From positions 2,316,501 to 2,380,500 of the forward strand of contig NZ_QTJP01000001.1 in assembly GCF_003391115.1 (NCBI RefSeq): a stretch of DNA of 64,000 nt, in the 5' to 3' direction. The notes beneath the pieces were generated by a model. The model was not told the DNA's origin. It saw nothing but the letters and a program-made list of their open reading frames with translations, and searched no databases. Below are positions 1 to 14,280 of this stretch, one piece after another; position 1 is the stretch's first letter, and every line of letters begins with the position of its first letter. Position numbers and translations under genes: made by a program. This DNA comes from Sphingomonas crusticola. GTDB taxonomy: Bacteria; Pseudomonadota; Alphaproteobacteria; Sphingomonadales; Sphingomonadaceae.

Positions 1-306
1 CACGTCGCGCAGCGGGCCTTTCTTGGGACCCTCCTCGATCACATGCTTGGTCGCTTCGGTGACGAGGCCTTCCATGCCCTTGCAATGTTCCTTGGAGACC
101 TTCTCGCCCTGGCCGGCGATCAGCTCCTTGAGCATGTCCGTATGCTTCTCGATCCCGGCCTGCGACTTGGTCAGCATGTCCTTGAGCGTGGCGTCGCTCG
201 CCTTAGATACGATCTTCTTGAGCACGCGCTTCATCTGATCGTTGGCGGACCACAGATCCTTGAGCTCGTCCGTATAGATTTCCTTCAGATCCTCGGGCGT
301 CGACAT
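1..306 (-). CDS. DUF892 / YciF-like ferritin-fold protein (partial, C-terminus beyond window)
   Basis: The reading frame is open from an ATG at 306 to the window edge (102 codons), so the C-terminus is missing. The start reads MSTPEDLKEIYTDELKDLW, followed by an amphipathic helix with K/E repeats and then EKHTDMLKELI. This is the pattern of the DUF892 (YciE/YciF) family, small helical-bundle proteins with a ferritin-like fold linked to stress responses. GGAAAGGACC lies just upstream of the start as a Shine-Dalgarno region. No metal ligands can be judged from the fragment. The family call is from recognition of the N-terminal pattern; the function remains open. Confidence 0.75.
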   Translation of the reverse strand, partial: MSTPEDLKEIYTDELKDLWSANDQMKRVLKKIVSKASDATLKDMLTKSQAGIEKHTDMLKELIAGQGEKVSKEHCKGMEGLVTEATKHVIEEGPKKGPLRDV

Positions 307-475
307 GGGTGATGGTCCTTTCCTGCCACCGGCAGGATGCGCAATGACCCGGCTGGAGCGCGCCTGGCGTGCGGATGTTCCAGACTTTCGGCAAAAGCGG
401 CGTCGCCGTGGATCGTCGAACCGGCGGCGGTGCGACAGGTGCGGCACGACCGGCTTCGGAGCGCAGCGCCGCGGA
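307..475. other. Intergenic, nothing recognised
   Basis: About 170 bases lie between the DUF892 gene and the end of the DUF1801 gene. They should hold the promoter and leader of the leftward DUF892 gene. I see no convincing terminator, repeat or small gene. Confidence 0.5.
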
Positions 476-946
476 TCAACCCCGCCGCTTGTTCGCGCTC
501 AGGAACGGGATCCTCCCCGCCTGCTCGATCCATGCGATGAGCTGGCGTTCGTCGAGACCGGCCAGCGATGCCGGCTCCACGCCGCGGGTGGACTTGCCCA
601 TGCCGATCGGTTTGACCGGCGGCTCGGGCTGGAGCTCGGTGCCGTGGATGAACATCAGCTTCACATGCCCGACGAACGCGCCGGACGAAAAGCACCAGCC
701 GCCATCGGTCCCGTAATAGGCCATGCCCCACTTGATCGCGCGTTGCAGTCCGGGCAGCGCAATCGCGGCCAAGGCGTCGATCCGCTCGGCAATGTCCCGC
801 TGTGGCTGCGGCAGGCTGGCGATATACGCGAAGACCGGCGCGTCGCCTTCCGCCGCTTTCGCAGCGCTCGCCTTGCCGGTCATCGCGACCAACAGCTCCG
901 CCGGCTTCTCCTGCTCGGCCGATGTTGCGCCAGAAGATTTCGCCAT
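476..946 (-). CDS. DUF1801 domain-containing protein
   Basis: This is a 156-residue protein. The core reads YIASLPQPQRDIAERIDAL, followed by the family signature IKWGMAYYG and then a segment ending in FIHGTEL. DUF1801 proteins are small cytoplasmic proteins of unknown biochemical function. I prefer the ATG at 946 over the in-frame ATG at 985, because GGAG lies five bases before it and the extra N-terminal residues look non-conserved. The gene lies downstream of the phosphoribosyltransferase gene on the same strand, with a gap of about 50 bases, so co-transcription is possible. Confidence 0.8.
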   Translation of the reverse strand: MAKSSGATSAEQEKPAELLVAMTGKASAAKAAEGDAPVFAYIASLPQPQRDIAERIDALAAIALPGLQRAIKWGMAYYGTDGGWCFSSGAFVGHVKLMFIHGTELQPEPPVKPIGMGKSTRGVEPASLAGLDERQLIAWIEQAGRIPFLSANKRRG

Positions 947-996
947 CACCTCTCCGACCATCTGAGCGGCGCCCCCGTCATTCATCCGGCGCGATG

Positions 997-1542
997 CTAA
1001 TCGGCGATACGGCCCAACGCCATGCAGATCACGTCGCTGGCGCCGGCATCTTCGAGCAGCCGGCGGCAGGCGAGCATCGAATTTCCGCTCGATAGCACGT
1101 CGTCCAGCAGAAACACCCGCTCGCCCACGATCAGCTGCGGTGATTTCACCGCGATCGAATCCAGGTGCACCCGGATGTCGCGGCGCACGCCCGGCGCCAG
1201 CCTGGCTATCTTGGTGTGGCGGATGAGCGCCGCGGTAGCGTCGTACAGAGGCGTCAGCCCCGCGAGCCGCTTGGCGAGCTTGCGGATGCCGGGCCCCGTC
1301 TTGGTGGGGTCGCTCGAAGGCACGATGGCGATCACCCCGGGCGTCCTGATACGCGGCGCCATGAAGTCGATGAAATAGTGCAGGCCGGCCTCCTGCCCCG
1401 ATTTCACGTCCAGGATGCGGCCGCTATGTTCGGGATAGCTCGCGCCGTCGCCGCCTTCGTCCTTGTGCAAGCCCCACGGCTTGAACGCACCCAGCGTCGC
1501 AATCTCGATCCCGTCGATCTCGTCCTGGTGCATGTCGATCAT
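997..1542 (-). CDS. Phosphoribosyltransferase-fold protein
   Basis: This is a 181-residue protein with a type I phosphoribosyltransferase PRPP loop: FLLDDVLSSGNSM near residues 144-156, with two acidic residues after a hydrophobic strand and a small-residue loop. An upstream segment reads IAIVPSSDPTKTG. The substrate is not predictable; the family ranges from nucleotide salvage enzymes to competence-type ComF-like proteins. The start is the ATG at 1542; a GTG directly before it is an alternative. A longer frame runs upstream through rsgA, but that part is a shadow of rsgA. The gene follows rsgA by about 40 bases, so the two probably share a transcript. Confidence 0.75.
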   Translation of the reverse strand: MIDMHQDEIDGIEIATLGAFKPWGLHKDEGGDGASYPEHSGRILDVKSGQEAGLHYFIDFMAPRIRTPGVIAIVPSSDPTKTGPGIRKLAKRLAGLTPLYDATAALIRHTKIARLAPGVRRDIRVHLDSIAVKSPQLIVGERVFLLDDVLSSGNSMLACRRLLEDAGASDVICMALGRIAD

Positions 1543-1583
1543 CACGCCGCCTACCGCACCGCGGCCCGCGCGTCTAAGTAAAG

Positions 1584-2576
1584 CTAGCGCCGCGCCTTGG
1601 GATAAAGGGGGGTGGGATTTTCCTCGGCCGCCAGCTGACGCCAGCGATCGAAGCGGGCCGCCGTCAGCGTGCCGTCGGCCATCCCCGCCCGCACGGCGCA
1701 GCCCGGCTCGTTGCCATGCCCGCAATTGGAGAAGCGGCAGCTCTCCGCCGCCAGGATGAAATCGTCGAACACTTCGGAGATGCCCGCCGCCGCATCCGTC
1801 AGCTGCAGCTCGCGCATGCCCGGCGTGTCGAGCAGCCAGCCGCCGCGCGCCAGCCGGTGCATCTCGCGCACCGTCGTCGTATGGCGCCCCGTCGCGTCGC
1901 GGGCGCGGATCGCCTGGGTGGCGATGCTGTCGGAGCCCCGCAAGCTGTTGACCAGGGTCGACTTGCCGACCCCCGACGATCCGAGCAAAGCCACCGTCTC
2001 GCCCTGGCCGCACCAGCATGCGAGCCGCGCGACGCTCGCCGGATCGCGGCCGTTGACGGCTTCGACCCGCAACCCCGGCTCGATCGCGCGCGCCGCCGCC
2101 GCATAGCTCTCCGCATCCTCCGCCAGGTCGATCTTGGTCAGCACCACCACCGGATTCACCCCGACTTCGTGCGCCAGCACCAGATAACGCTCCAGCCGCG
2201 CCACGCTGAAATCCTGGTTGCACGATGCGACGATGAACAAGGTGTCGACATTGGCCGCGATCATCTGTTCCTTGCGCGCATTGCCGGGCGCGCGCCGCTT
2301 GAACAGGTTCATCCGCTGCAGCACGCGGATCGCCTGCCCGGTGGCGCCGTCGATCAAAAGCCAGTCGCCGACCGTCGGATGATCGTCCCCCGGTCTGGCC
2401 CCGGCGATGTTCGGCGCGATGAACCCTTGGCCCCCCGCACCGCTGATCGCGATCTTGCCGCGATGGACCGCCATCACCCGCACGGGATGCGCGTGCGCCG
2501 CCTCCTCGCGCGAAACCTGATCGCTGAAATAAGGCTTCCAGCCGAGGTCGTCCAAAGTGTCCGTGGTCGATGGCAT
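1584..2576 (-). CDS. rsgA: Ribosome small subunit-dependent GTPase A
   Basis: RsgA (YjeQ/EngC) is a circularly permuted GTPase that checks late 30S subunit maturation. The 330-residue protein has an N-terminal OB-like region, then the G motifs in permuted order: TKID (147-150), the P-loop GSSGVGKS (199-206) and DTPG (250-253). A C-terminal zinc knuckle is formed by C280, C285, H287 and C293. The ATG at 2576 gives the usual family length; earlier in-frame starts add an Arg/Pro-rich tail that looks untranslated. The zinc ligands and the G4-G1-G3 order make the assignment secure. Confidence 0.95.
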   Translation of the reverse strand: MPSTTDTLDDLGWKPYFSDQVSREEAAHAHPVRVMAVHRGKIAISGAGGQGFIAPNIAGARPGDDHPTVGDWLLIDGATGQAIRVLQRMNLFKRRAPGNARKEQMIAANVDTLFIVASCNQDFSVARLERYLVLAHEVGVNPVVVLTKIDLAEDAESYAAAARAIEPGLRVEAVNGRDPASVARLACWCGQGETVALLGSSGVGKSTLVNSLRGSDSIATQAIRARDATGRHTTTVREMHRLARGGWLLDTPGMRELQLTDAAAGISEVFDDFILAAESCRFSNCGHGNEPGCAVRAGMADGTLTAARFDRWRQLAAEENPTPLYPKARR

Positions 2577-2834
2577 CGGGCTGCGGCGGCGTCTTTCTGT
2601 CGGCCACGGCGCGGGGTTCCGCGTCGGCCAGGCGCCCGCCCTGCCAAGGCCGCCGCGAGTCCGCAAGGCTCGTGCCGGTCGCGGCCTTCGGGCGCTTCCT
2701 TGCCGACAACCTCCTCGCTTCGCCGCACGGCCGGCCCGGATCGCCCGCTCTCGCCGCGCTCCGGCCGCCCTTATTCATCCGCGGGACAGGTGGGCCTGAC
2801 ACGAACCGGGCCGCAATCTGAGAGGAGAGGCTCC

Positions 2835-3710
2835 ATGCATTTCACGTCCACCCGCTCGGGCGCCCGCGCGCTGCTCGTCGCTTTGTCCGTGTCCGCGTCC
2901 CTGACCGCGTCCGCAACCGCCTTCGCGCAGCAGCAGGACGCGCCCGACACCAATGTCGTCGTCAACGGCATCAGGACGCCAGGGCCCGATATCAAGGGCG
3001 TCATCACCGCGCGCAACGATCAGCGGCTGAAGGTCACCACCGCCGACGGCAATGCCACGATCATCGCCGTCAACGACGCCACCCAGATCCGCGCTGGCGG
3101 CGGCCTGTTCGGCATCCGCAGCAAGCTCGCGCAGGATTCGCTGCTCAACGGCCTGCCCGTCACCGTCAAGACCTGGCGCGCGGGCGATGGCCCGGGCGGC
3201 GAGCTCGTCGCCAGCCGGATCAGCTTCCGCAACAGCGATCTCAAGACCGCCACCATGATCCGCAACGGCACCAGCCAGCGCTTCGAGGAGCAGACCGCGG
3301 CGACCGAATCCCTGCGCGGCCGCCTCGGCGATATCGACAAATATAATATCAAGGGCACCACCGAGGTGCATTTCGACACCGGCAAGACGCAATTGTCCGA
3401 GCAGGACAAGGCCCAGCTCTGCAACACCGCCAGCACCGCCCAGCAGACCGAAAACGCCCTGTTGCTGGTCGTCGGCTACACCGATTCCACCGGCGGCGAC
3501 GATTACAATCAGGAGCTGAGCGAGAAGCGCGCCGGCCGCGTCATCAACTATCTCCAGCAGGCCTGCGGCTGGAAACCCTATCGCATGCTCACCCCCACCG
3601 GCATGGCCAAGGCCGATCCCGCCGCGCCCAACGACACGCCCGAAGGCAAGGCGATGAACCGCCGCGTCGCGGTCAACATCCTCGTCAGCAAGAGCGTCGA
3701 CGGCCTGTAA
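2835..3710 (+). CDS. OmpA-family outer membrane protein
   Basis: This is a 291-residue protein with a signal peptide ending near AFAQQQ. The middle domain (about residues 35-130) reads ITARNDQRLKVTTADG and resembles a small beta-rich DUF5666-like module. The C-terminal OmpA-like domain contains HFDTGKTQLS, GYTDSTGGDDYNQELSEKRA and NRRVAVNI, the peptidoglycan-binding pattern. It is probably an outer-membrane or periplasmic anchor protein. The start is chosen at 2835, after a clear GGAGAGG at 2823; the frame is open further upstream, but those codons lack a signal sequence. No operon partner is evident. Confidence 0.88.
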   Translation: MHFTSTRSGARALLVALSVSASLTASATAFAQQQDAPDTNVVVNGIRTPGPDIKGVITARNDQRLKVTTADGNATIIAVNDATQIRAGGGLFGIRSKLAQDSLLNGLPVTVKTWRAGDGPGGELVASRISFRNSDLKTATMIRNGTSQRFEEQTAATESLRGRLGDIDKYNIKGTTEVHFDTGKTQLSEQDKAQLCNTASTAQQTENALLLVVGYTDSTGGDDYNQELSEKRAGRVINYLQQACGWKPYRMLTPTGMAKADPAAPNDTPEGKAMNRRVAVNILVSKSVDGL

Positions 3711-3839
3711 CGGGCAGCCCGGGGGACCTCGCGCGCCGCGCAGCGGCCGGAGGCGGGGTTCCCCGGTCGGCCGCGATCGACGCATGCCGGGGCCGAATGC
3801 ATTTTCGATGCGTTCCGCATAGCCTAGGCAGGAGCCGTC

Positions 3840-4001
3840 ATGACCCAACATCCCGAAAAGCCGATCGCCCCCTTGCCCGACGCTGCCGGGACGCCGCCGG
3901 CCAATCCCGACGCGCACAAGTTCGGCGATGCCGCGACACAGGACGGCAAGGAGCAAGCCGCCGAAGACGACGCGGCTGAGCAATTGGGTAATTTCGCCTA
4001 G
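3840..4001 (+). CDS. Small acidic hypothetical protein (53 aa)
   Basis: A 53-codon frame begins MTQHPEKPIAPLPDAAG and ends with an acidic tail, AEDDAAEQLGNFA. AGGAG precedes the ATG at a usual distance. It is rich in Ala, Pro and Asp, has no membrane segment, and is probably disordered. Codon use matches its neighbours. No family is recognised; short proteins of this kind recur near SDR genes in sphingomonads, but that is only an impression. Confidence 0.5.
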   Translation: MTQHPEKPIAPLPDAAGTPPANPDAHKFGDAATQDGKEQAAEDDAAEQLGNFA

Positions 4002-4067
4002 CATCGCCGAAGCCGGGCGCTAATTGCCAGGGCGGCTCCTGCGGCGGGGCTGCTTGCGGAGGATGAC

Positions 4068-4820
4068 ATGGCGGGACGGGTAGCGCTGATCACGGGCGCC
4101 GGAACGGGCATCGGCCGCGCCGCCAGCCTCGCCCTCGCCGCGCGCGGCTACCGCATCGCGCTCGCCGGCCGCCATGCCGAGACGCTGGAGGCCGTGGGCG
4201 CGCAGGTCGAAATCGAAGGCGGCGAAGCCCTGGCCGTGCCCACCGACGTGACCGATCCGGACGCCGTCCGCGCGCTGTTCGACGCCGCGGTCGATCGCTT
4301 CGGGCGCGTCGATCTCCTGTTCAACAATGCCGGCACCAACGTGCCCGGCGTGCCGCTCGACCAATTGTCCTACGCGGATTGGCGCGCGGTCATCGACGTC
4401 AACCTGACCGGCGCCTTCCTGTGCCTCCAGAACGCCTTCCGCGTGATGAAGGCGCAGCGGCCCGGCGGCGGCCGCATCATCAACAACGGCTCGATCTCAG
4501 CGCACAGCCCCCGGCCCAACTCCAGCCCCTACACCGCCAGCAAGCACGCCATCACCGGGCTGACCAAAAGCGCGTCGCTCGACGGCCGCGCCTTCGACAT
4601 CGCCTGCGGCCAGATCGACATCGGCAACGCCGGAACCGACATGGCGCTCGCGATGACGAAGGGGGTGCCGCAGGCGAACGGCGCGATCGCGGTCGAGCCG
4701 GTGTTCGATGTGACCCTGGTGGGCGAAGCGATCGCCTACATGGACAGCCTGCCGCTCGACGCGAACGTCCAGTTCATGACCGTGATGGCGACCAAGATGC
4801 CGTTTGTGGGACGTGGCTGA
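4068..4820 (+). CDS. SDR family oxidoreductase
   Basis: This is a 250-residue classical short-chain dehydrogenase/reductase. The nucleotide-binding TGAGTGIG is at residues 9-16, NNAG at 86-89, a serine in GSIS near 142, and the catalytic pair Y155 and K159 in YTASK. It should reduce or oxidise a small carbonyl or alcohol with NAD(P). The substrate cannot be told, and the C-terminal substrate loop gives no clue. A GCGGAGGA ribosome site precedes the start. It is the last gene with host-like composition before the accessory island begins. Confidence 0.92.
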
Positions 4821-4974
4821 AAACGACTTCGAGTTAAGCGCAGGATTGGCCGGGAGTGGCGTTGATGGCCTGTAGAAACTGCGGCATGATGACCTCTTGC
4901 GATTGGCCACGACACGCCCGCGGAGCTGTCCTTCTGAACGATGTATCACCGCCACAAGAACGTATAGAGAACAC

Positions 4975-5002
4975 TTGCGCAAGCTGGCCGGTGTGATACG
5001 GT
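4975..5002 (+). promoter_or_regulatory. Possible promoter of the island methyltransferase
   Basis: TTGCGC at 4975-4980 and TACGGT at 4997-5002 are separated by 16 bases and lie about 45 bases before the methyltransferase ATG. Both boxes are only partial matches to the sigma70 consensus. The surrounding 230 bases hold no controller (C-protein) gene that I can see. Confidence 0.25.
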
Positions 5003-5048
5003 ACGCTTGTGGCGTGGGAAACGCTCGGGCACGCATTCTGAGGGCATC

Positions 5049-6125
5049 ATGAGCTATCGCCTTATCGATCTTTTCGCAGGCGCTGGCGGTATGACGCTGG
5101 GCTTTACCGATAATCGCTTCTGCGGTGGTTTCGAAAGTGTATGGGCACTCGACATCGATCGATCAGCAGTAGCGACCCACCGGCGTAATTTCGGCCCGCA
5201 TGCTACATGCGCTGATATTGAACATTGGCTCGAAACCGACAGGCCGATCCCTGCGGCGGATGTGGTTGTAGGTGGCCCGCCCTGCCAAGGTTTCAGCCTT
5301 TTAAATAAGCAGCGCGCCGGAGATCGTCGCAGAGAATTATGGCTGCCGTTTCTAGATGTGGTGGAGCGTTGCGGAGCTTCCGTTTTCGTGATCGAGAACG
5401 TGGCTGAGCTTCGTTCTTCACCGGAATATTCGGAGATCGAAAAGCACGCCAACAAAATGGGATTTGACGTCGTCAGCGAGGTGTTGCTGGCTGCTGATTA
5501 TGGTGCGCCGCAGTCTCGTAAACGGACGGTTATTCTGGGATATCGGCGCGATTTGGTCGCCGGAGTAACGTTTCCTCCGTTAGCTACACATGCAGCTCCT
5601 AAGTCAGGGAAGAATTTACCGCCCTGGAGAACTGTGTGGGACGCTATTGCCGACTTGCCAAATCCCGTGGGCACCGAAATCCGCCGCGTGAAAGCACCCT
5701 TGGACCTTCATTTTGGTCGTAACCCGACGTCAAAGAGTGCCGCTCGCTATCGCGCGGTTCCGCCCGGCGGCAATCGTTTCGATTTACAACGCAACGCCCC
5801 GGAAATTACGCCTGACTGCTGGATACGCAAAACTTCCGGTGGAACTGACCTTTTTGGCCGGTTGTGGTGGGATCGGCCGTCCGTCACAATTCGCACGGAG
5901 TTCTTTAAGCCCGAAAAGGGTCGTTACCTTCACCCTGATGAGCACCGGCCTATCACGCACCGGGAAGCGGCGCGATTGATGGGGTTCCCGGATGACTTCA
6001 AATTCGAAGGGACGAAGATCGACATCGCCCGGCAGATCGGAAACGCAGTTCCACCGCCGTTAGCGGGCGCGATTGGACAATTGGTGCGTCAAATACTCGA
6101 CGGCCGAATGCGGGCTGCTGCCTAA
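5049..6125 (+). CDS. DNA (cytosine-5-)-methyltransferase
   Basis: This is a 358-residue m5C methyltransferase. Motif I is DLFAGAGGMTLGF (7-19). Motif IV is GGPPCQGFS, with catalytic C79. Motif VI is ENV (116-118), motif VIII is QSRKR (155-159), and motif X is GNAVPPPLAGAI near the C-terminus. The variable region between VIII and IX should read the DNA target. Because an NgoMIV-type endonuclease lies in the same island, the target is probably GCCGGC, by inference. The ATG at 5049 follows GAGGG closely. GC content is visibly lower than in the flanks. The gene converges on, and directly abuts, the HNH gene. Confidence 0.95.
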   Translation: MSYRLIDLFAGAGGMTLGFTDNRFCGGFESVWALDIDRSAVATHRRNFGPHATCADIEHWLETDRPIPAADVVVGGPPCQGFSLLNKQRAGDRRRELWLPFLDVVERCGASVFVIENVAELRSSPEYSEIEKHANKMGFDVVSEVLLAADYGAPQSRKRTVILGYRRDLVAGVTFPPLATHAAPKSGKNLPPWRTVWDAIADLPNPVGTEIRRVKAPLDLHFGRNPTSKSAARYRAVPPGGNRFDLQRNAPEITPDCWIRKTSGGTDLFGRLWWDRPSVTIRTEFFKPEKGRYLHPDEHRPITHREAARLMGFPDDFKFEGTKIDIARQIGNAVPPPLAGAIGQLVRQILDGRMRAAA

Positions 6126-7091
6126 CTATTCGACGTCAAGGACGCCCGCTCGGTGCACTTCGTCATGATGCAAATTGCAAAGCGTAACGAGGTTTTCGAC
6201 GGAGTTTGCCCCGCCTTCAGCGTGATGCTCGATGTGATGAGCTTCTAGAAAACGATGGTCTTGGGGCGGGAAACCCGTTGGCCATCCGCAACCGCGCCAG
6301 CGGCAGGACCAATGGTCTCTTCGCATAACTTCGCGACGAACAACTTCCGGAATGTGGCGATCATGAAGCGGTGCCTGCTCATCGCGTTCCAACACATACG
6401 TTCCAACCGGCAGCGTTGGATCGCCGGTATTCCTGGTCATCACCGGCCAGCCCATCTCAGTTCGCAATTCACGCGTTCGGCGCGCCCACTCGGTCGCATC
6501 GCCTGCTACATACCGAAGCTCCTCGGATGTTACACGCTGACCGACATTTTCTCTGAAAAAGCGTAGAAGCTTGTCACGAGTGCTGGCGGTACTTCGCCGG
6601 ATCTGGTTCGCCATATTCCAGCGAAATGCCGCGTCGCGGTCTTGTGAGTCTTCCAGGAGAAGATACTGCGAAGGTAGCATTTGCGGCAGCGATAGGTCCT
6701 CGTACTCGCCCTCGACGCGACCTTCTTCAAACTCATCCCGCATTTCGCTCGCGGTGATTCCGGAGAGTATTGGCCAACCTTCTTGCTTGCGAAGTTCCCG
6801 AATTCGGCGGGCATATTCGCTGATGCCAGCGACAACCATTAGCTCGTCCCCGTCGATGACGATGCCGGGAAATAGCCGCAGATAAGCTAGGATGCGGTCT
6901 CTAGCGGAGAGATAGCCTCCTTCTGGCAAGAGTGAGCTTCCAAGATCGCGTAACAGATGATTGGCCGGAACTAGGTTACGCACCTGCTGTCGCAGTTCTG
7001 AATGCTCCAAATGCCATTCGAAATTTGTCAGGAGGTCAATCAGATCTCGCCGCAGTTTGTCGGGAGCCTTCTCCCTCGGTCGCCTCGCCAT
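6126..7091 (-). CDS. HNH endonuclease with duplicated winged-helix-like module
   Basis: This is a 321-residue protein. The C-terminal HNH domain (about 240-312) has a CRWRGC half-knuckle, AHHIEHHAEGG, NLV and LCNLHHDEVH, giving the His-Asn-His ligands near H286, N300 and H309. Before it lie two similar blocks. Residues 64-110 include ARRIRELRKQEGWPI and residues 172-220 include ARRTRELRTEMGWPV. Each is followed by a short YLLLEDSQ or YVLERDEQ strand, as expected for tandem winged-helix DNA-binding domains. The start lies inside the end of vsr, with a 56-base overlap. It may be a nuclease of the restriction system or a separate defence enzyme; its target is unknown. Confidence 0.85.
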   Translation of the reverse strand: MARRPREKAPDKLRRDLIDLLTNFEWHLEHSELRQQVRNLVPANHLLRDLGSSLLPEGGYLSARDRILAYLRLFPGIVIDGDELMVVAGISEYARRIRELRKQEGWPILSGITASEMRDEFEEGRVEGEYEDLSLPQMLPSQYLLLEDSQDRDAAFRWNMANQIRRSTASTRDKLLRFFRENVGQRVTSEELRYVAGDATEWARRTRELRTEMGWPVMTRNTGDPTLPVGTYVLERDEQAPLHDRHIPEVVRREVMRRDHWSCRWRGCGWPTGFPPQDHRFLEAHHIEHHAEGGANSVENLVTLCNLHHDEVHRAGVLDVE

Positions 7092-7512
7092 CTACCCTGC
7101 TGTCCCGCCCTGTGGCGCCGTCAATGCGCTTTGTGACTTTGTCCTGATACTTAAGCTCGCACTCCCATACTGTCACTGTCGCGATGCCAAGCGTCTGCAA
7201 GCTGCTGACCGCCATGCAATCTCTGAGCCGGTTCTGGCCGATTTTCGTGGTCCAGAATTCTCTACGCGTCTCGGGCAGCTTCGCTCTTTTGCACCCCGTA
7301 TGACCGTGCCAAAAGCAACCATGTACGAAAATCGCGAGCTTGTATTTCGGCAGAAAAATGTCGGGTCGGCCCGGTAAATCCTTACGGTGCAGCCGGAATC
7401 TATATCCGAGCCTATGTAGGATTTTTCGTACCAAGAGTTCTGGCTTGGTGTTCTTTCCTCTAACTCGCCGCATGTTATTGCTGCGAGCTTCGGGGCTAAT
7501 ATGGTCAACCAC
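7036..7512 (-). CDS. vsr: Very short patch repair endonuclease
   Basis: Vsr nicks DNA next to T:G mismatches left when 5-methylcytosine deaminates, which protects sites methylated by a partner m5C methyltransferase. The protein is 158 residues. E25, D51 in GRPDI, H64 and H69 in HGCFWHG match the active-site positions of the E. coli enzyme. C66, H71, C74 and C118 (in WEC) fit the structural zinc site. Val replaces the usual Thr at 63. The start is GTG at 7512; M14 is a possible alternative. Its presence beside the m5C methyltransferase is typical of m5C restriction systems. Confidence 0.95.
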   Translation of the reverse strand: MVDHISPEARSNNMRRVRGKNTKPELLVRKILHRLGYRFRLHRKDLPGRPDIFLPKYKLAIFVHGCFWHGHTGCKRAKLPETRREFWTTKIGQNRLRDCMAVSSLQTLGIATVTVWECELKYQDKVTKRIDGATGRDSRVDGEATEGEGSRQTAARSD

Positions 7513-7539
7513 GTTTAAATTACATGTTCAGTTTGTGGT

Positions 7540-8391
7540 TCATATCGCAAGATCGAGCGGCAAATCCGCCACGTCCTTGAGTCGCTGCTGTTCTATCATG
7601 AGTTTAAGTAAATCGCGTTGCTTGTGGTGCGCGATGTTTTCTACCGCTGCCTCAAGCTCGGGCAGAGCAATATGATACACGCAGTCGATATCGCCCGTCC
7701 CCAGAGCGAGCGAGGCCAGTCGGCTCGGCGTGGGTTCGGCTGTTAGCACTACGATGTGCGGCACGCGTCCCCGGCGGCTTCGAATGAGATTGAGGGCTTC
7801 TGATCGTGCATTTTGCGCCCGGTCGCTCCGCATAGTCCATTTGCAAGAGATGCAAGCATGCAGGCTAGGCTTTGAGTGACTCGACGCTCGAAGCGACGCT
7901 CGGTTGGCTGTTACGCTATCGACTAACGCCATTGCTGCATTGATCGCGCTATCCGCCTCCGGCCTCCGTGAGATCACTACGTCTGATGCGATATTGTAGT
8001 TCAAACCCAAGAGGGCGCGGATCTCTGGCCTATCCTCGGCAGCTTTCTCTATGAGCCCAAGATGCGAGTATTGCTCGTACTGCGCGATGGAAACTCCACT
8101 ACGCGACTTCACGTGATGAACCTCCCAGTCACCGGGTCGTAACGCACCCAGCTCCAGAAAGGTTTTCTGGAGGTATAAGGTTGTTAACGCTTCGAATTCC
8201 CCACCAGCCGCTTGGGGACTTAGGGCAGGGCCCTCCTTGACAGCTAACGTTTGCGCTAAGTGCCTTGCTATAGCGGTGCTATTAGGCTGCTTTTTGTCTG
8301 CGTTCGATGGCTTGCCGCCCTCGTCCAGCACGAATAGCTTTTGCCGGAGGCTCGCGTGAAACTCTGCACGTGCGTTTGTGATCAGGCCCAA
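7540..8391 (-). CDS. NgoMIV-type type II restriction endonuclease (predicted GCCGGC)
   Basis: This is a 283-residue protein that closely resembles NgoMIV along its length. The CCGG-family active site S-x-K-x13-E is intact: S182, K184 and E198, with D137 and E67 at matching spacing (a uniform offset of three from NgoMIV). The recognition block RSDR is at 188-191, and the tail reads RLKDVADLPLDLA. NgoMIV is a Mg-dependent tetramer that cuts G^CCGGC. The frame has no ATG: the first usable start is TTG at 8391. An in-frame ATG directly followed by TAG lies 24 bases upstream. This may keep expression low or mark a nonsense mutation at codon two. Confidence 0.93.
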   Translation of the reverse strand: MGLITNARAEFHASLRQKLFVLDEGGKPSNADKKQPNSTAIARHLAQTLAVKEGPALSPQAAGGEFEALTTLYLQKTFLELGALRPGDWEVHHVKSRSGVSIAQYEQYSHLGLIEKAAEDRPEIRALLGLNYNIASDVVISRRPEADSAINAAMALVDSVTANRASLRASSHSKPSLHACISCKWTMRSDRAQNARSEALNLIRSRRGRVPHIVVLTAEPTPSRLASLALGTGDIDCVYHIALPELEAAVENIAHHKQRDLLKLMIEQQRLKDVADLPLDLAI

Positions 8392-8637
8392 GTTGGTCTC
8401 GATGTTTTTCTACATGATCGTGTATGGCAGAAGCGCAAGATAATTGCACCGGTGTTGCCGCTCCTCGACCCCCGCTCAATTGCCGGTTTCGCACCACACG
8501 GCGATCGCCGTCGACCTACCGCCCTGCCACGCTTGGCTGGCGCGTTCTGGCCACTGTTGGCCGGGGGGGGGCGATCCAGATTGAGCTTGGGCGAAGGAGT
8601 GAAGACGATGGCTTCCCCTTCTGCGCGGCGCCACACC
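8392..8637. other. GC-rich gap inside the AT-richer island
   Basis: About 245 bases lie between the restriction endonuclease and the next nuclease gene. Composition is clearly GC-richer than in both neighbours, and a run of nine G lies at 8563-8571. Open frames exist on both strands, but none has family-like sequence or a ribosome site. It must contain the promoter for the leftward endonuclease gene. It may be a scar of an older insertion or deletion; I cannot identify a source. Confidence 0.4.
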
Positions 8638-9924
8638 CTAGCTTTCAGCAGGCGCGTTCACGTGCTTTTGCGTTCCATCAAACCTGGCTAAGACTATTTC
8701 AAACGGCTTCAGAGAGATGGGTTCGCCCTTTGGCACAGCAATGGCTAGCCCCGATGCTTGCTCCACTAGATGGATATGCCAGTAGGTGCCTCGTGGGTTT
8801 TTATCGGTAGTGTTCAATAGGGGAAGCAACTTACTTATCGTTTTGTGAGGGATCGCAAACGCTGTGCTGCGGTCCATGCAGCCCAAAACAAAATAGCCTT
8901 TATCGACCTCTCCTAGGAACGCATCCCACTGGGGGTGATAAGCATACCAGTATGGGGCCTGGTTTTTGCCGGTATAGCGTTTCGACACAGTACACGCGGC
9001 TCGGACGCTATGTTCCGTATTCCAATAAAGTGCTCTACTCTTGCGAATTAGGTTGGTGCTTTCAAATCGAGCTAACGCTTTAACCATATCTTCGCGTTTG
9101 GCTTGAAGAAGCTGACTATCGGTAAATTCCCAAGCTGATTTGGCAGCGATCTTTTGTTTGAGTACTGAAGGTGCAGAGGCCGACGGCAAATCCGTTGTGG
9201 AAGCGCCTTCTACCGCCTGATGCGAGAGCTCGGAATCGTCCTCCAGGTCAACAGCAGTCGTGAACATCACGTCGACCATACGGTCTAACCGAGTATATTC
9301 TATGGGCGTGAGCAGGCTGCGCATTTTGAGGCCGGTTTCATCTGATTCCGTATTCTCTTTCAGGAGGACCAATTTGATCAGTGCTTCGGCGCTAATCACC
9401 CTGATGTCCCAGGCGTGACGGGATCCTCGGATTTGCGCTTCGAGCTCTCCCGTATCTTGCCGTCCGACGATGATAAGAATCGAGGATTGCGAGGTGATTT
9501 TACTCTGCTCGCTGAGCTTCGATCGATAGTTGGACAGCGCGTCGAGAGAGATCCGATATGCGTCAGTAGTCTTTACCTCGACGATTAAGGTATGTTGTTC
9601 GGGGGAAAGCCAAAGCCCGTCAAATCCGACTTGTCCCTGAACACCCTGATACCTCCCATTGGTGACCCTGTAATCGAGGCGTCGTCCGAGCTCGTTGACA
9701 AGATCTTGTAGAACTAGGCCGCTTCGGTTGAACGAAACTGACAGGCAATGATCAATGTATAGAGCTATCTTCTCGGTCGATATCTTACTAAAGTACTCAC
9801 GAATTTCGAGGGCGCACACGGAATCATCTTTTAAAATCCCGTCGCCAGCGGTCGACACGACCTGCTCAATGTTAAGCATGTCGACACTGTCCGCCGCGGA
9901 GTCGTAAAGGGAAAGCAGAGGCAT
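8638..9924 (-). CDS. Uncharacterised PD-(D/E)XK nuclease-like protein of the restriction island
   Basis: This is a 428-residue protein. Its N-terminal half has a PD-(D/E)XK-type core: D102 in VGFDGLW, then E116 and K118 in IVEVK, followed by a helix and by the strand ILIIVGRQD. The middle (about 215-265) is acidic and serine-rich, probably a linker. The C-terminal domain (about 300-420) has YWYAYHPQWDAFL, GYFVLGCMDR, FAIP and a final YWHIHL. I associate that layout with uncharacterised restriction-linked proteins, but no named family is claimed. It has low GC and the same strand as the endonuclease genes. It could be a type IV-like or accessory nuclease. Confidence 0.7.
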   Translation of the reverse strand: MPLLSLYDSAADSVDMLNIEQVVSTAGDGILKDDSVCALEIREYFSKISTEKIALYIDHCLSVSFNRSGLVLQDLVNELGRRLDYRVTNGRYQGVQGQVGFDGLWLSPEQHTLIVEVKTTDAYRISLDALSNYRSKLSEQSKITSQSSILIIVGRQDTGELEAQIRGSRHAWDIRVISAEALIKLVLLKENTESDETGLKMRSLLTPIEYTRLDRMVDVMFTTAVDLEDDSELSHQAVEGASTTDLPSASAPSVLKQKIAAKSAWEFTDSQLLQAKREDMVKALARFESTNLIRKSRALYWNTEHSVRAACTVSKRYTGKNQAPYWYAYHPQWDAFLGEVDKGYFVLGCMDRSTAFAIPHKTISKLLPLLNTTDKNPRGTYWHIHLVEQASGLAIAVPKGEPISLKPFEIVLARFDGTQKHVNAPAES

Positions 9925-9970
9925 GAAATCAGCCTAGCGCCCAGGAAGCCAATCGCAACTGTTTACGCCC

Positions 9971-10189
9971 TCAAATCACCCGCCTCTCCACCTCCCACGC
10001 GCGCATCAACTCCTCCACCCCCGCCAGCTCCGCCTCCAGCCGCTGCCGGCACCCATTCCCCGCCGCATTGCCACTCGACCGTTTCTTCCCCTCATCCGTC
10101 CGCGGCCCGGTCGAGTGCGCCCACGCCTGGCGCGCCTTCATCATCCGTGCATAGGCCGCGCGCCGTTCAGGCGTCCAACCCTTCGCCAT
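9971..10189 (-). CDS. Conserved hypothetical protein (72 aa)
   Basis: This is a small basic protein beginning MAKGWTPERRAAYARMM, with the block STGPRTDEGKKRSSGNA, a motif that recurs in short alphaproteobacterial proteins of unknown function. The C-terminal helix LEAELAGVEELMRAWEVE could be amphipathic. It overlaps the end of the upstream gene by 23 bases, which suggests translational coupling. Composition is host-like, so it marks the right-hand edge of the island. Confidence 0.65.
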   Translation of the reverse strand: MAKGWTPERRAAYARMMKARQAWAHSTGPRTDEGKKRSSGNAAGNGCRQRLEAELAGVEELMRAWEVERRVI

Positions 10190-10718
10190 ACGCCTCCCGC
10201 ATCATGTTGCGTGCCGCCCAATCGTCCCCCGGCCCGTCGTCGCCCAAGTCCATGTCGCGCGCCGCGCCGGGTTCGCGCGCGGTCACGATGATGCGCTCGA
10301 TCCGCGTGATCTGCCGCGGCGGCTCCGTCTCGCTGCTCGGCCGGTTGGCCATGTCGCTTAGCGCGCGCACGGTCGCGCGGCACTGCGCCTGCGCCCGCAC
10401 CGCCAGCCTTATATAGCGTTCGGCGGCAATGCCCGGCCGGCCCAGCGCCGCCTGGCCGCGCCGCGCCATCTCGGCGAAGATCGCGTTGAGCGCGATCGCC
10501 TGTCCCATCAGCATCGTCTCCGCGCCGGCCAGCCCGCCGTCGCGCGCCGCCTGCACCTGCTCCAGCACCGCCTCATAGCCCGCCTGCGGATCGATCGCGG
10601 CGCCGCCCGTCTCGTCCCAGAACGCCGCCACCACCGCCGAACTCGTCACGCACGGGTCCACCGCCTGCGCCGCAATCTCGCGCCGCCGGGCTGCCTCGTC
10701 CGTCTCGCTCACCCCCAT
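10167..10718 (-). CDS. Hypothetical protein (183 aa)
   Basis: The protein is Ala-rich and mostly helical, beginning MGVSETDEAARRREIAAQA. The central block YIRLAVRAQAQCRATVRAL and the acidic C-terminus DMDLGDDGPGDDW are the most distinctive parts. I recall similar Q-C-R-A-T blocks in uncharacterised proteins next to small STGPRT-type proteins, so the pair with the downstream 72-residue gene is probably a real unit. No catalytic motif or membrane segment is visible. A role in a cryptic mobile element is possible but not shown. Confidence 0.6.
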   Translation of the reverse strand: MGVSETDEAARRREIAAQAVDPCVTSSAVVAAFWDETGGAAIDPQAGYEAVLEQVQAARDGGLAGAETMLMGQAIALNAIFAEMARRGQAALGRPGIAAERYIRLAVRAQAQCRATVRALSDMANRPSSETEPPRQITRIERIIVTAREPGAARDMDLGDDGPGDDWAARNMMREAYGEGLDA

Positions 10719-10736
10719 CGCATCCCGCCTTTCCGC

Positions 10737-10765
10737 TTGACTAAAGTACGTTTAAAGCGTACACA
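10737..10765 (+). promoter_or_regulatory. Candidate valS promoter overlapping an inverted repeat
   Basis: TTGACT at 10737-10742 is a near-consensus -35 box. TACACA at 10760-10765, 17 bases later, is a weak -10. Between them GTACG (10746-10750) and CGTAC (10758-10762) form a perfect inverted repeat around TTTAAAG, so a regulator bound here would cover the promoter. The site lies about 210 bases before the valS start and just upstream of the leftward hypothetical gene, so it could serve either. Confidence 0.35.
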
Positions 10766-10975
10766 ATCGCGAGGAAAAGTCAAGTTAATTACGCCATCTG
10801 CGTACGATGTCGCTCTTTCTCATGTCGGTTGGTCAACGCGCCGGGCCTCGGCCGCCGCACCGCCGTCCCCGCAATCATCAAGTTCGTTTCTGGTGTTTTT
10901 TTATTTTTGGGCCGGCCCAGCGGAGTAGCGGCCCTCTCGCATCGGCGCCGCACTCCCTCTAAGGCCACCGGCGCC

Positions 10976-13843
10976 ATGACCATCGACAAGACCTTTGATC
11001 CCGCCGCCATCGAATCCCGCTGGTACAGCCATTGGGAGGAGGGCGGCCTGTTCCGCCCCGCGCGCGACGATGCGCAGCCCTTCACCATCGTCATCCCGCC
11101 GCCCAACGTCACCGGCTCGCTCCACATCGGCCACGCGCTCGACGTGACGTTGCAGGACATCCTCGTTCGCCACGCCCGCCTTCAGGGCAAGGACGCGCTG
11201 TGGGTGGTCGGCACCGATCATGCCGGCATCGCCACGCAGATGGTGGTCGAGCGCAACCTCGCCGCCGAGGACATCACCCGCGCCTCGGTCGGCCGCGACG
11301 CCTTCATCGCCAAGGTGTGGGAATGGAAGGCGGAGAGCGGCGGCACGATCACCCGCCAGCTCCGCCGCCTCGGTGCGTCCTGCGATTGGGCCAATGAGCG
11401 CTTCACGATGGACGCGGGCTTCTCGCGCGCCGTGCTCCACGTCTTCGTCGCGCTCTACAATCAGGGCCTGCTCTATCGCGACAAGCGCCTGGTCAATTGG
11501 GATCCGCACTTCCGCACCGCCATCTCCGATCTCGAGGTCGAGACCAGGGAGGTGAATGGGAAGTTCTGGCACATCCGCTATCCGCTGGAGGATCGGCCCG
11601 GCTATATCTCGGTCGCGACCACGCGGCCCGAAACCATGCTTGGCGACATGGCCGTCGCAGTCCATCCTGACGACCAGCGTTACAAGCATCTCATTGGCGA
11701 GATGATCCGCTTGCCGATCACGAGCCGGCTCATCCCGATCATCGCCGATGAACATGCCAATCCTGAGCTCGGATCGGGCGCCGTCAAGATCACGCCCGGG
11801 CACGACTTCAACGACTTTCAGGTCGCCCGACGGGCTGACATCCAAACGTCGGATATGTGGAACATCCTCGATGCAGAGGCTCGGATTGTGGCGCCTCCCG
11901 GCTGCGGAGTTCCTGCCGATCTTGTCGGCCTCGACCGGTTCGAAGCCCGCGACTTCATCGTCAAGCTTCTGGACGAGGCCGGTGCGCTGGAGAAAGTCGA
12001 GGATCGCGTCATCCAGACGCCTTATGGCGATCGCTCCGGCGCGGTGATCGAGCCGTGGCTGACCGATCAATGGTATGTCGACGCCAAGACGCTCGCCGGC
12101 CCCGCGCTCGAAGCGGTGCGTTCCGGCGACATCCGCGTCGTCCCCGAAACCTGGAAGAAGACCTGGTATAATTGGCTCGAGAATATCCAGCCCTGGTGCG
12201 TCAGCCGCCAGCTCTGGTGGGGCCACCAGATCCCCGCCTGGTATGACGAAGACGGCCAGGTCTACGTCGCCGAGAGCGAGGCTGAGGCGCAGGCCTTGGC
12301 CGGCGACCAGCCCCTGACCCGCGACACGGATGTGCTCGACACCTGGTTCTCCAGCGCCCTCTGGCCCTTCGCGACATTAGGGTGGCCGGGGCACTCCAAC
12401 ACCGTTCGTGCTGAGCCTGTCGAACCGGAGGTCGCCGAGAGGCAAGCACCGTCCTTCTCTTCGTCTGGCGCAGGAAGCAGTACAGCCCTTCGACAGGCTC
12501 AGGGCGAACGGGAGATTGTTCACACCAAGTCCCTGGTCTCCCGCCACTACCCCAACGACGTCCTCATCTCCGGCTTCGACATCCTCTTCTTCTGGGATGC
12601 GCGCATGGCGATGCAGGGGCTGCATTTCATGGGGGAGAAGCCGTGGAAGACGCTCTACCTCCACGGCCTCGTCCGCGACGCCCACGGCGCCAAGATGTCC
12701 AAGTCCAAGGGCAATACCGTCGATCCGCTCGGCCTGATCGACAAATATGGCGCCGATGCCTTGCGCTTCACGCTCGCGGCGATGGAAAGCCAGGGCCGCG
12801 ACATCAAGCTCGATGAGAAGCGCGTCGAGGGCTATCGCAACTTCGCGACCAAGCTGTGGAACGCCGCCCGCTTTGCCCAGTCGAACGGCATCGGCGGATC
12901 GACCACGCTGGAGCCGCCCCGGGCCGAGCTCGCGGTCAACCGCTGGATCCTCGCCGAGACCGTCAAGACCATCCAGGCGCTCGACCTCGCGCTCGCCGAC
13001 CTCCGCTTCGACGAGGCCGCCAACACCATCTACCACTTCGTCTGGGCCAGCTTCTGCGACTGGTATCTCGAACTGATCAAGCCTGTCATTGGAAATACCG
13101 TTCGTGCTGAGCTTGTCGAAGCACCGTCCTTCTCTACGTCGGGTGCAGAAGAAAGCAGCGCAGCCCTTCGACAAGCTCAGGGCGAACGGAATGAGAGCCC
13201 CGAAGCCCAGGAAACCCGCGCCGTCGCCGGCTGGGTGCTCGACCAGATCCTGGTCCTGCTCCACCCCTTCATGCCCTTCCTCACCGAGGAATTGTGGCAC
13301 GCGCTCGCGGATCGCCCCAACGATCTGATCCTCGCCCGCTGGCCGATGGCCGACGCGCGCGCGATCGATCCCGCCGCTTCGGCCGAGGTCGAATGGCTGA
13401 TCAAGCTGGTCAGCGAGATCCGCGCCGCGCGCAGCGAGCTCAACGTGCCCCCCGGCGCGCGCCTCCATCTCTTCGCGAGCGACGTCTCCGACGAGACGAT
13501 CGACCGCCTCGACCGCCAGCATGCCGTCCTGTCGCGCCTCGCCCGGCTCGATTCGATCCAGCTCTCGCCCTTTGCCGGTACCGGCGCGGCGCAGGTCGTG
13601 GTGGACGAAGCGACCTACGCCTTGCCGCTCGAAGGCGTGATCGATCTCGCCGCCGAGCGCGCCCGCCTCGCCAAGGGTGCGGAGGCGGCCGAGAAGGAGC
13701 GCGACGGCCTCGCCGGCCGCCTCAACAACCCGGCCTTCGTCGAGAAAGCCAAGCCCGAAGCGGTCGCCAAGGCGCGGGAGGACCATGACGCCAAGGCCGC
13801 CGAAGCCGAACGCCTCCGCGCCGCGCTGGCGCGGTTGGGATGA
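10976..13843 (+). CDS. valS: Valine--tRNA ligase
   Basis: ValRS charges tRNA-Val and edits misactivated threonine. The 955-residue protein shows the class Ia motifs: [16 protein letters not shown] near residue 42, the editing-domain pattern [10 protein letters not shown], and [12 protein letters not shown] in the second half. A C-terminal Arg/Lys-rich coiled coil reads [19 protein letters not shown]. The ATG at 10976 begins [13 protein letters not shown], the usual N-terminus; earlier in-frame codons are untranslated leader. Two palindromic repeats are inserted in frame (about residues 476-512 and 708-738), both in places where other ValRS proteins have loops. The stop overlaps the next gene's ATG. 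Confidence 0.97.
12402..12511. repeat. Palindromic repeat, copy 1, inserted in frame in valS
   Basis: The outer arms at 12402-12424 and 12489-12511 are inverted copies that match at 21 of 23 positions. The left arm begins CCGTTCGTGCTGAGCCTGTC and the right arm begins TTCGACAGGCTCAGGGCGAA. The translated element gives RAEPVEPEV and ends [10 protein letters not shown] second copy with the same arms lies 700 bases downstream. This is a dispersed intergenic-type repeat that I recognise from sphingomonad genomes. Confidence 0.9.
13098..13189. repeat. Palindromic repeat, copy 2, inserted in frame in valS
   Basis: The arms at 13098-13120 (CCGTTCGTGCTGAGCTTGTC followed by GAA) and 13167-13189 (TTCGACAAGCTCAGGGCGAA followed by CGG) are inverted copies. 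The translated element gives [11 protein letters not shown] and ends ALRQAQGER, the same peptide family as copy 1. It sits between the conserved WYLELIKPV segment and the next anticodon-domain helix, where a loop of variable length is expected. Confidence 0.9.
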
Positions 13844-14280
13844 CGCGCGCGGCCGCCGCCGACCCGGAGATTGGCACGCTTTCCCCCGACGACGTCGAAC
13901 AGGCGATCGAGCTGTGGGCTGAAGCCGGGGTTTCGCATCCCTGGAACGATGCGCATGCGGACATCGCCGCGGCGCTGGCCTGTCCGACCGGCACCATCCT
14001 CGCCGCGCGCGCTGCCGGACGGATCGTGGCGACGGTGATGGCGGGCTATGACGGCCATCGCGGCTGGCTTTATTATGTCGCGGTCGCCAACAGCCATCGC
14101 GGCACCGGCCTCGGCCGCGCGATCGTCACCGCCGCCGAGGATTGGTTGCGCGGGCAGGGCGCCCACGTCATCCGCCTGATGGTGCGCCGGTCCAATGAAC
14201 AGGCGGTCGGCTTCTATGAGGCGCTCGGCTTCGAGGCCGGCGACCTCATCGTGATGGGCAAAAGGTTCGGCGCCGGTTGA
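13840..14280 (+). CDS. GNAT family N-acetyltransferase (YpeA-like)
   Basis: This is a 146-residue GNAT-fold protein. The central acetyl-CoA-binding segment reads [19 protein letters not shown], followed by the helix [18 protein letters not shown] and the strand-turn [17 protein letters not shown]. The substrate is unknown; YpeA-like members act on small molecules or protein N-termini. It starts in an ATGA overlap with valS and is therefore probably translated from the valS transcript. Confidence 0.88.

Follow-up and report, generated by a model that had tools for sequence, protein, structure and literature searches.

How many endonucleases can one methyltransferase serve, and why would a bacterium keep more than one of them? 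This question is raised by a compact gene block of Sphingomonas crusticola that lies in the window analyzed here, a stretch of 64,000 nucleotides (G000:C1:2316501-2380500). The block consists of five intact open reading frames at positions 5049-9924, which encode a 5-methylcytosine (m5C) DNA methyltransferase (M), an HNH nuclease, a Vsr mismatch endonuclease, an NgoMIV-type restriction endonuclease and a PD-(D/E)XK-like protein. A sequence-only reading had claimed that there are more nucleases than one methyltransferase needs and that the extra two, the HNH and PD-(D/E)XK proteins, may form a second layer of defense. The first part of this claim holds and the second is not supported. As described below, the likely explanation is a type II restriction-modification system that combines one m5C methyltransferase with two non-homologous endonucleases predicted to act on the same site, GCCGGC. 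An alternative enzyme for GCCGGC is the most likely role of the HNH protein, and the window would hold both enzymes under one M while its relatives hold one. We favor this assignment because of the constant link of the HNH protein to Ms close to that of the window (the near clade), its exchange with NgoMIV, the conserved recognition region of M, a similar exchange in a second M clade and a fold match to NaeI.

Partners of the methyltransferase

The M gene (5049-6125, plus strand, 358 residues) matches Pfam PF00145 DNA_methylase (7.3e-58), and its relatives adjoin HNH, NgoMIV or both. The NgoMIV-type enzyme (7540-8391, minus strand, 283 residues) matches PF09015 NgoMIV_restric (1.3e-100) and aligns with NgoMIV itself over the full length (1fiu, 1.6e-81). 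It has kept E70, D140, K187 and E201, which we take to be the four catalytic residues of NgoMIV. The Vsr gene (7036-7512, minus strand, 158 residues) matches PF03852 (3.2e-31) and TIGR00632 (2.6e-42; 143.8 bits, the cut-off being 97.85). The suggestion that M, NgoMIV and Vsr are a coherent m5C restriction unit is borne out, since the trio recurs in three other loci, L025, L038 and L140. In L025 the M is 79% identical to the window M and adjoins NgoMIV and Vsr, and the window NgoMIV-type enzyme groups with the enzyme of that locus.

The block thus resembles the NgoMIV type II (IIF) system in its full-length homologous endonuclease, its adjacent m5C methyltransferase and, as in L025, L038 and L140, its Vsr. 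It differs by the added HNH nuclease, which shares M; one endonuclease per methyltransferase is usual for such systems, although not strictly defining. The window M is also only ~27-30% identical to the clade of the M that adjoins the gonococcal NgoMIV gene. NgoMIV cuts at G|CCGGC (PMC4081073), and from homology and partners the window enzyme would have the specificity GCCGGC.

The HNH gene (6126-7091, minus strand, 321 residues; Pfam HNH 1.9e-6) encodes a helical N-terminus, two winged-helix modules at residues ~60-150 and 166-238 and a C-terminal HNH domain at ~245-315. The modules align with each other (E 1.8e-23), so the repeated DNA-binding module that had been read from the sequence is real. 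A scan of viral contigs seeded with M gave 64 loci, of which 61 reach at least 46% identity, and a scan with an HNH profile gave 41 loci, comprising 27 two-module matches and 14 short or weak ones. All but one of the 27 were on contigs already found with M; the other (L201) is cut by the contig end. Counting as two-module those HNH genes at least 45% identical over at least 150 residues, there are 31 distinct genes in all of the fetched loci, some of them near-identical, and each of the 31 has a near-clade M within 4 kb. In two cases (L091:69-2189 and L094:8001-10121) M and the two-module HNH are fused in a single chain of 707 residues, which would be a one-chain restriction-modification enzyme; both contigs look haloarchaeal. 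A gene annotated as vsr on a Pandoraea plasmid (L036:8581-9939) covers both Vsr and HNH, and so it too looks like a fusion.

The phylogenetic tree of M displays an exchange of partners. For the tree, loci with the same label were merged at 97% identity, which left 42 representatives of the 67, with partners sought within 6 kb (12 kb for L137 alone); L095, L098 and L099, in which M is broken or partial, and L057, L088 and L089, in which the contig ends after M, were left out. The HNH label includes the short or weakly matching HNH genes of L087, L090 and L138. On this tree HNH and NgoMIV replace each other, with NgoMIV at three separate places, and the three nearest relatives of the window M are each without one of the two nucleases. 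When the whole fetched viral loci were searched, none had both HNH and NgoMIV. Searches for NgoMIV remnants in L043, L035, L147 and L148 returned nothing better than E 0.11; in L025 HNH gave no match at E 1e-3, a more sensitive remnant search not having been run at that locus.

Does the methyltransferase change its target when its partner changes? From the anatomy of the family we put the recognition region of M at residues 239-284 of the window M, and all rows labeled HNH or NgoMIV entered the comparison. HNH-partnered Ms share 0.787 identity with NgoMIV-partnered ones in this putative region and 0.588 in the remainder, the region being higher in 252 of 252 pairs, or in 225 of 225 without the three short-HNH loci. 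Within the HNH-partnered Ms the values are 0.826 and 0.593, and so a change of partner lowers the identity of the recognition region little. When five divergent rows (L038, L097, L138, L139 and L140) are left out, the values across partners become 0.857 and 0.640 (182 of 182 pairs), and the region ranks 40th among 312 equal stretches of M, which indicates that it is conserved, yet not the most conserved part of the protein. The most divergent recognition region, 0.53 identical to that of the window, is in L139, where M adjoins unrelated large proteins.

A similar pattern occurs in a second clade of Ms, which are ~27-30% identical to the window M. Their partners are NgoMIV (15 rows), a shorter HNH protein with one module (10) and NaeI (3). 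The tree of this clade needs six partner changes, and its starred branches force two for NgoMIV and two for the short HNH. For example, an Acidithiobacillus plasmid has a short HNH next to an M with 68-85% identity to NgoMIV-partnered Ms; the M next to the gonococcal NgoMIV gene is 69% identical to this plasmid M, and its identity to the M of L037 is 69%. A second-clade M lies within 4 kb of 10 of the 14 distinct short HNH genes. In L204, L205, L207, L211 and L018 the short winged-helix HNH gene, with 51-60% identity to that of L037, was seen without the usual methyltransferase clade, and these genes may possibly have a second specificity.

NaeI, like NgoMIV, is also a partner in this clade: NaeI relatives in L169, L170 and L175 adjoin Ms that are 65-71% identical to that of L037. 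The site of NaeI is GCCGGC, and the DNA-binding domain of NaeI is the best fold match of the reading module of the window HNH protein. NaeI is a type IIE enzyme. Its nuclease is of the PD-(D/E)XK kind (PMC4081073), unlike the HNH of the window; the same source prints the site of NaeI as GCC|CCG, an apparent misprint. HNH-family type II enzymes include KpnI, SphI, PacI and Hpy99I (PMC4081073). The window family shares with them the HNH catalytic motif and a methyltransferase partner, the latter fixed in 31 of 31 cases including the two fusions, and it differs from them by the two putatively NaeI-like winged-helix modules. Among the libraries scanned, only phrog_119, a phage cluster named 'HNH endonuclease' (1.1e-45), covers both modules and the HNH domain.

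Weighing one shared site against other readings

Several results weigh against two enzymes for one site. There is one compact locus with both HNH and NgoMIV, that of the window. Sequence similarity between the HNH modules and NaeI is weak by hhalign, and 4 of the 14 short HNH genes have no expected M within 4 kb. Synonymous divergence (dS) is saturated, being not computable in four of five comparisons and 3.8 in the fifth. Among the titles and abstract openings listed by searches of the open PMC subset, none describes an HNH isoschizomer of NgoMIV or a dual-nuclease GCCGGC system; REBASE may hold such an annotation. The restriction systems with GHKL ATPases (MORC and paraMORC; PMC2292703) are also counted among the closest known systems.

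One alternative, compatible with a shared site, is that the two nucleases came together at this locus by chance and that one of them is already inactive or not expressed. The nearest relatives, each lacking one nuclease, would fit this explanation. However, both genes are full length with their catalytic residues kept, the NgoMIV, Vsr and HNH genes are tightly spaced on one strand (a 27-nucleotide gap and then a 56-nucleotide overlap of the end of Vsr with the start of HNH), and a nonsynonymous divergence (dN) of 0.20-0.43, with dS saturated, also speaks against it; we regard it as rather unlikely.

Another possibility is that the two nucleases recognize different sites that are both covered by M, with the HNH protein reading, for example, the inner CCGG or a degenerate form, because M could be broader than either nuclease. 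This we think unlikely. Identity in the recognition region of M is almost as high across partners as among the HNH partners, and two M clades that are ~28% identical each include partners of NgoMIV and of winged-helix HNH enzymes, for which one shared site would be the easiest explanation.

A further possibility is that the HNH protein is of type IV, depends on DNA modification and adds a second layer directed at methylated phage DNA. Winged-helix HNH proteins have been described as dependent on N6-methyladenine (PMC11037411), and the HNH domain has its best PDB sequence match, and also its first Foldseek row, in EcoKMcrA, which is modification-dependent. However, no DpnI-type winged helix was among the Pfam families listed for the protein at E up to 1, and an enzyme that cuts the methylated site would be likely to harm the host wherever M and HNH occur together. 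The constant m5C methyltransferase link, extending to fusion in one chain, and the occupation of the place of NgoMIV also speak against the proposal that the HNH protein acts on differently modified DNA, and so a type IV role is improbable.

Setting of the block and its PD-(D/E)XK neighbor

On the minus strand the genes run, from the right, PD-(D/E)XK-like, NgoMIV, Vsr and HNH, with M opposite on the plus strand, and so the four nuclease-type genes do face the methyltransferase from one strand, as had been noted. That all four make up one multi-nuclease defense unit, as their common strand and common dip in guanine plus cytosine (GC) content might suggest, is very improbable, since the PD-(D/E)XK gene lies 246 bp upstream of NgoMIV and none of 10 relatives of its protein is near NgoMIV or a window-type HNH.

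The PD-(D/E)XK-like protein (8638-9924, minus strand, 428 residues; D102, E116, K118) had no sequence match in Pfam, NCBIfam, PADLOC or PDB at E up to 1, nor in PHROGs at E up to 0.01. Residues 24-216 of its AlphaFold model match type II nucleases, which supports the label given by eye. One of the 10 relatives (L006) adjoins Vsr and a distant methyltransferase. No plasmid match was found and no relative appeared in the viral scan, and 2 of 196 genomes of the order, the window's own included, have the protein. The sequence-only reading had stated that its idea of one unit would fail if the HNH and PD-(D/E)XK proteins occur mostly alone and never with NgoMIV-like systems; by this condition the neighborhoods do not support the PD-(D/E)XK protein as part of the unit, and it was rejected as a member of it. 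From its gene context it is probably unrelated cargo, an independent passenger.

The block coincides with a sharp GC dip. The GC content is 0.547 over 4900-9960, compared with 0.677 at 1-4820 and 0.668 at 10000-14000, and the minimum among 5-kb stretches stepped along the window is in the stretch starting at 5001. These values agree with the earlier view that the low-GC block was probably acquired. No tRNA was found within the window, as also stated earlier, and the repeats around the block are only weak, chance-like pairs. An insertion site was sought with the 801 bp right of the block in 21 genomes and with the valyl-tRNA synthetase (ValS) gene in seven same-genus genomes (own included); the four flank genes tested besides ValS had no match in the four ValS-upstream regions read, and so the insertion site could not be shown.

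The ValS gene itself (10976-13840), downstream of the block, has two in-frame similar stretches (NTVRAE...LRQAQGER) that resemble a repeated element inserted into a coding gene, and the matches of four same-genus relatives break at about residues 706-746, near the second stretch. In the block, the C-terminal tail of Vsr (7036-7140) extends over the start of HNH, giving 158 residues compared with 134 in L025 and 133 in L137. M also matches the DruM2 model (2e-96), yet the other four proteins have no Dru match at E up to 1, and a Druantia system was rejected.

In other samples of whole genomes, 396 from the order include five with a near-clade M (own, G030, G094, G977 and G1000). Further counts are NgoMIV in 4 of 398 and NaeI in 2 of 299 genomes of the phylum, and the HNH protein in 8 of 289 genomes of the class, the seven others being partial matches. 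With samples of this small size, and with partner counts for HNH and NgoMIV that depend on the seeds, the numbers are not frequencies. In phages the near-clade M had no match at E 1e-60.

A possible division of labor

If the two endonucleases share a site, M would methylate GCCGGC in the host and so protect it. NgoMIV, of type IIF, would cut the unmethylated sequence as a tetramer bound to two sites. In the HNH enzyme, the tandem pair of putatively NaeI-like winged-helix modules would read GCCGGC, possibly with a half-site for each module, and the HNH domain would cut the unmethylated site. Vsr would initiate the repair of T:G mismatches left by m5C deamination at the site. Having both a two-site NgoMIV and a possibly single-site HNH enzyme would be complementary; alternatively, the two together would mark a step in nuclease replacement, the locus having been retained midway between forms with HNH alone and forms with NgoMIV alone.

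A wider proposal, to which we give about an even chance, is that the HNH family with NaeI-like tandem heads shares the specificity of NgoMIV and NaeI and takes turns with them as the partner of two distant methyltransferase clades specific for GCCGGC. In that case the window would keep both nucleases as backup, one single-site and one two-site, and would represent the missing step by which one is replaced without loss of self-protection.

The replacement of a restriction nuclease by an unrelated one is a puzzle because the enzyme must match the protection that the host already has. Here the methyltransferase stays constant while its nuclease partner differs: one clade has several such changes, a second clade has them too, and in the window both nucleases occur together. 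The partners would also predict the recognition site of an uncharacterized HNH family, and pairing a two-site cutter with one that possibly needs a single site, both for one sequence, would be a simple hindrance to phages that evolve few sites.
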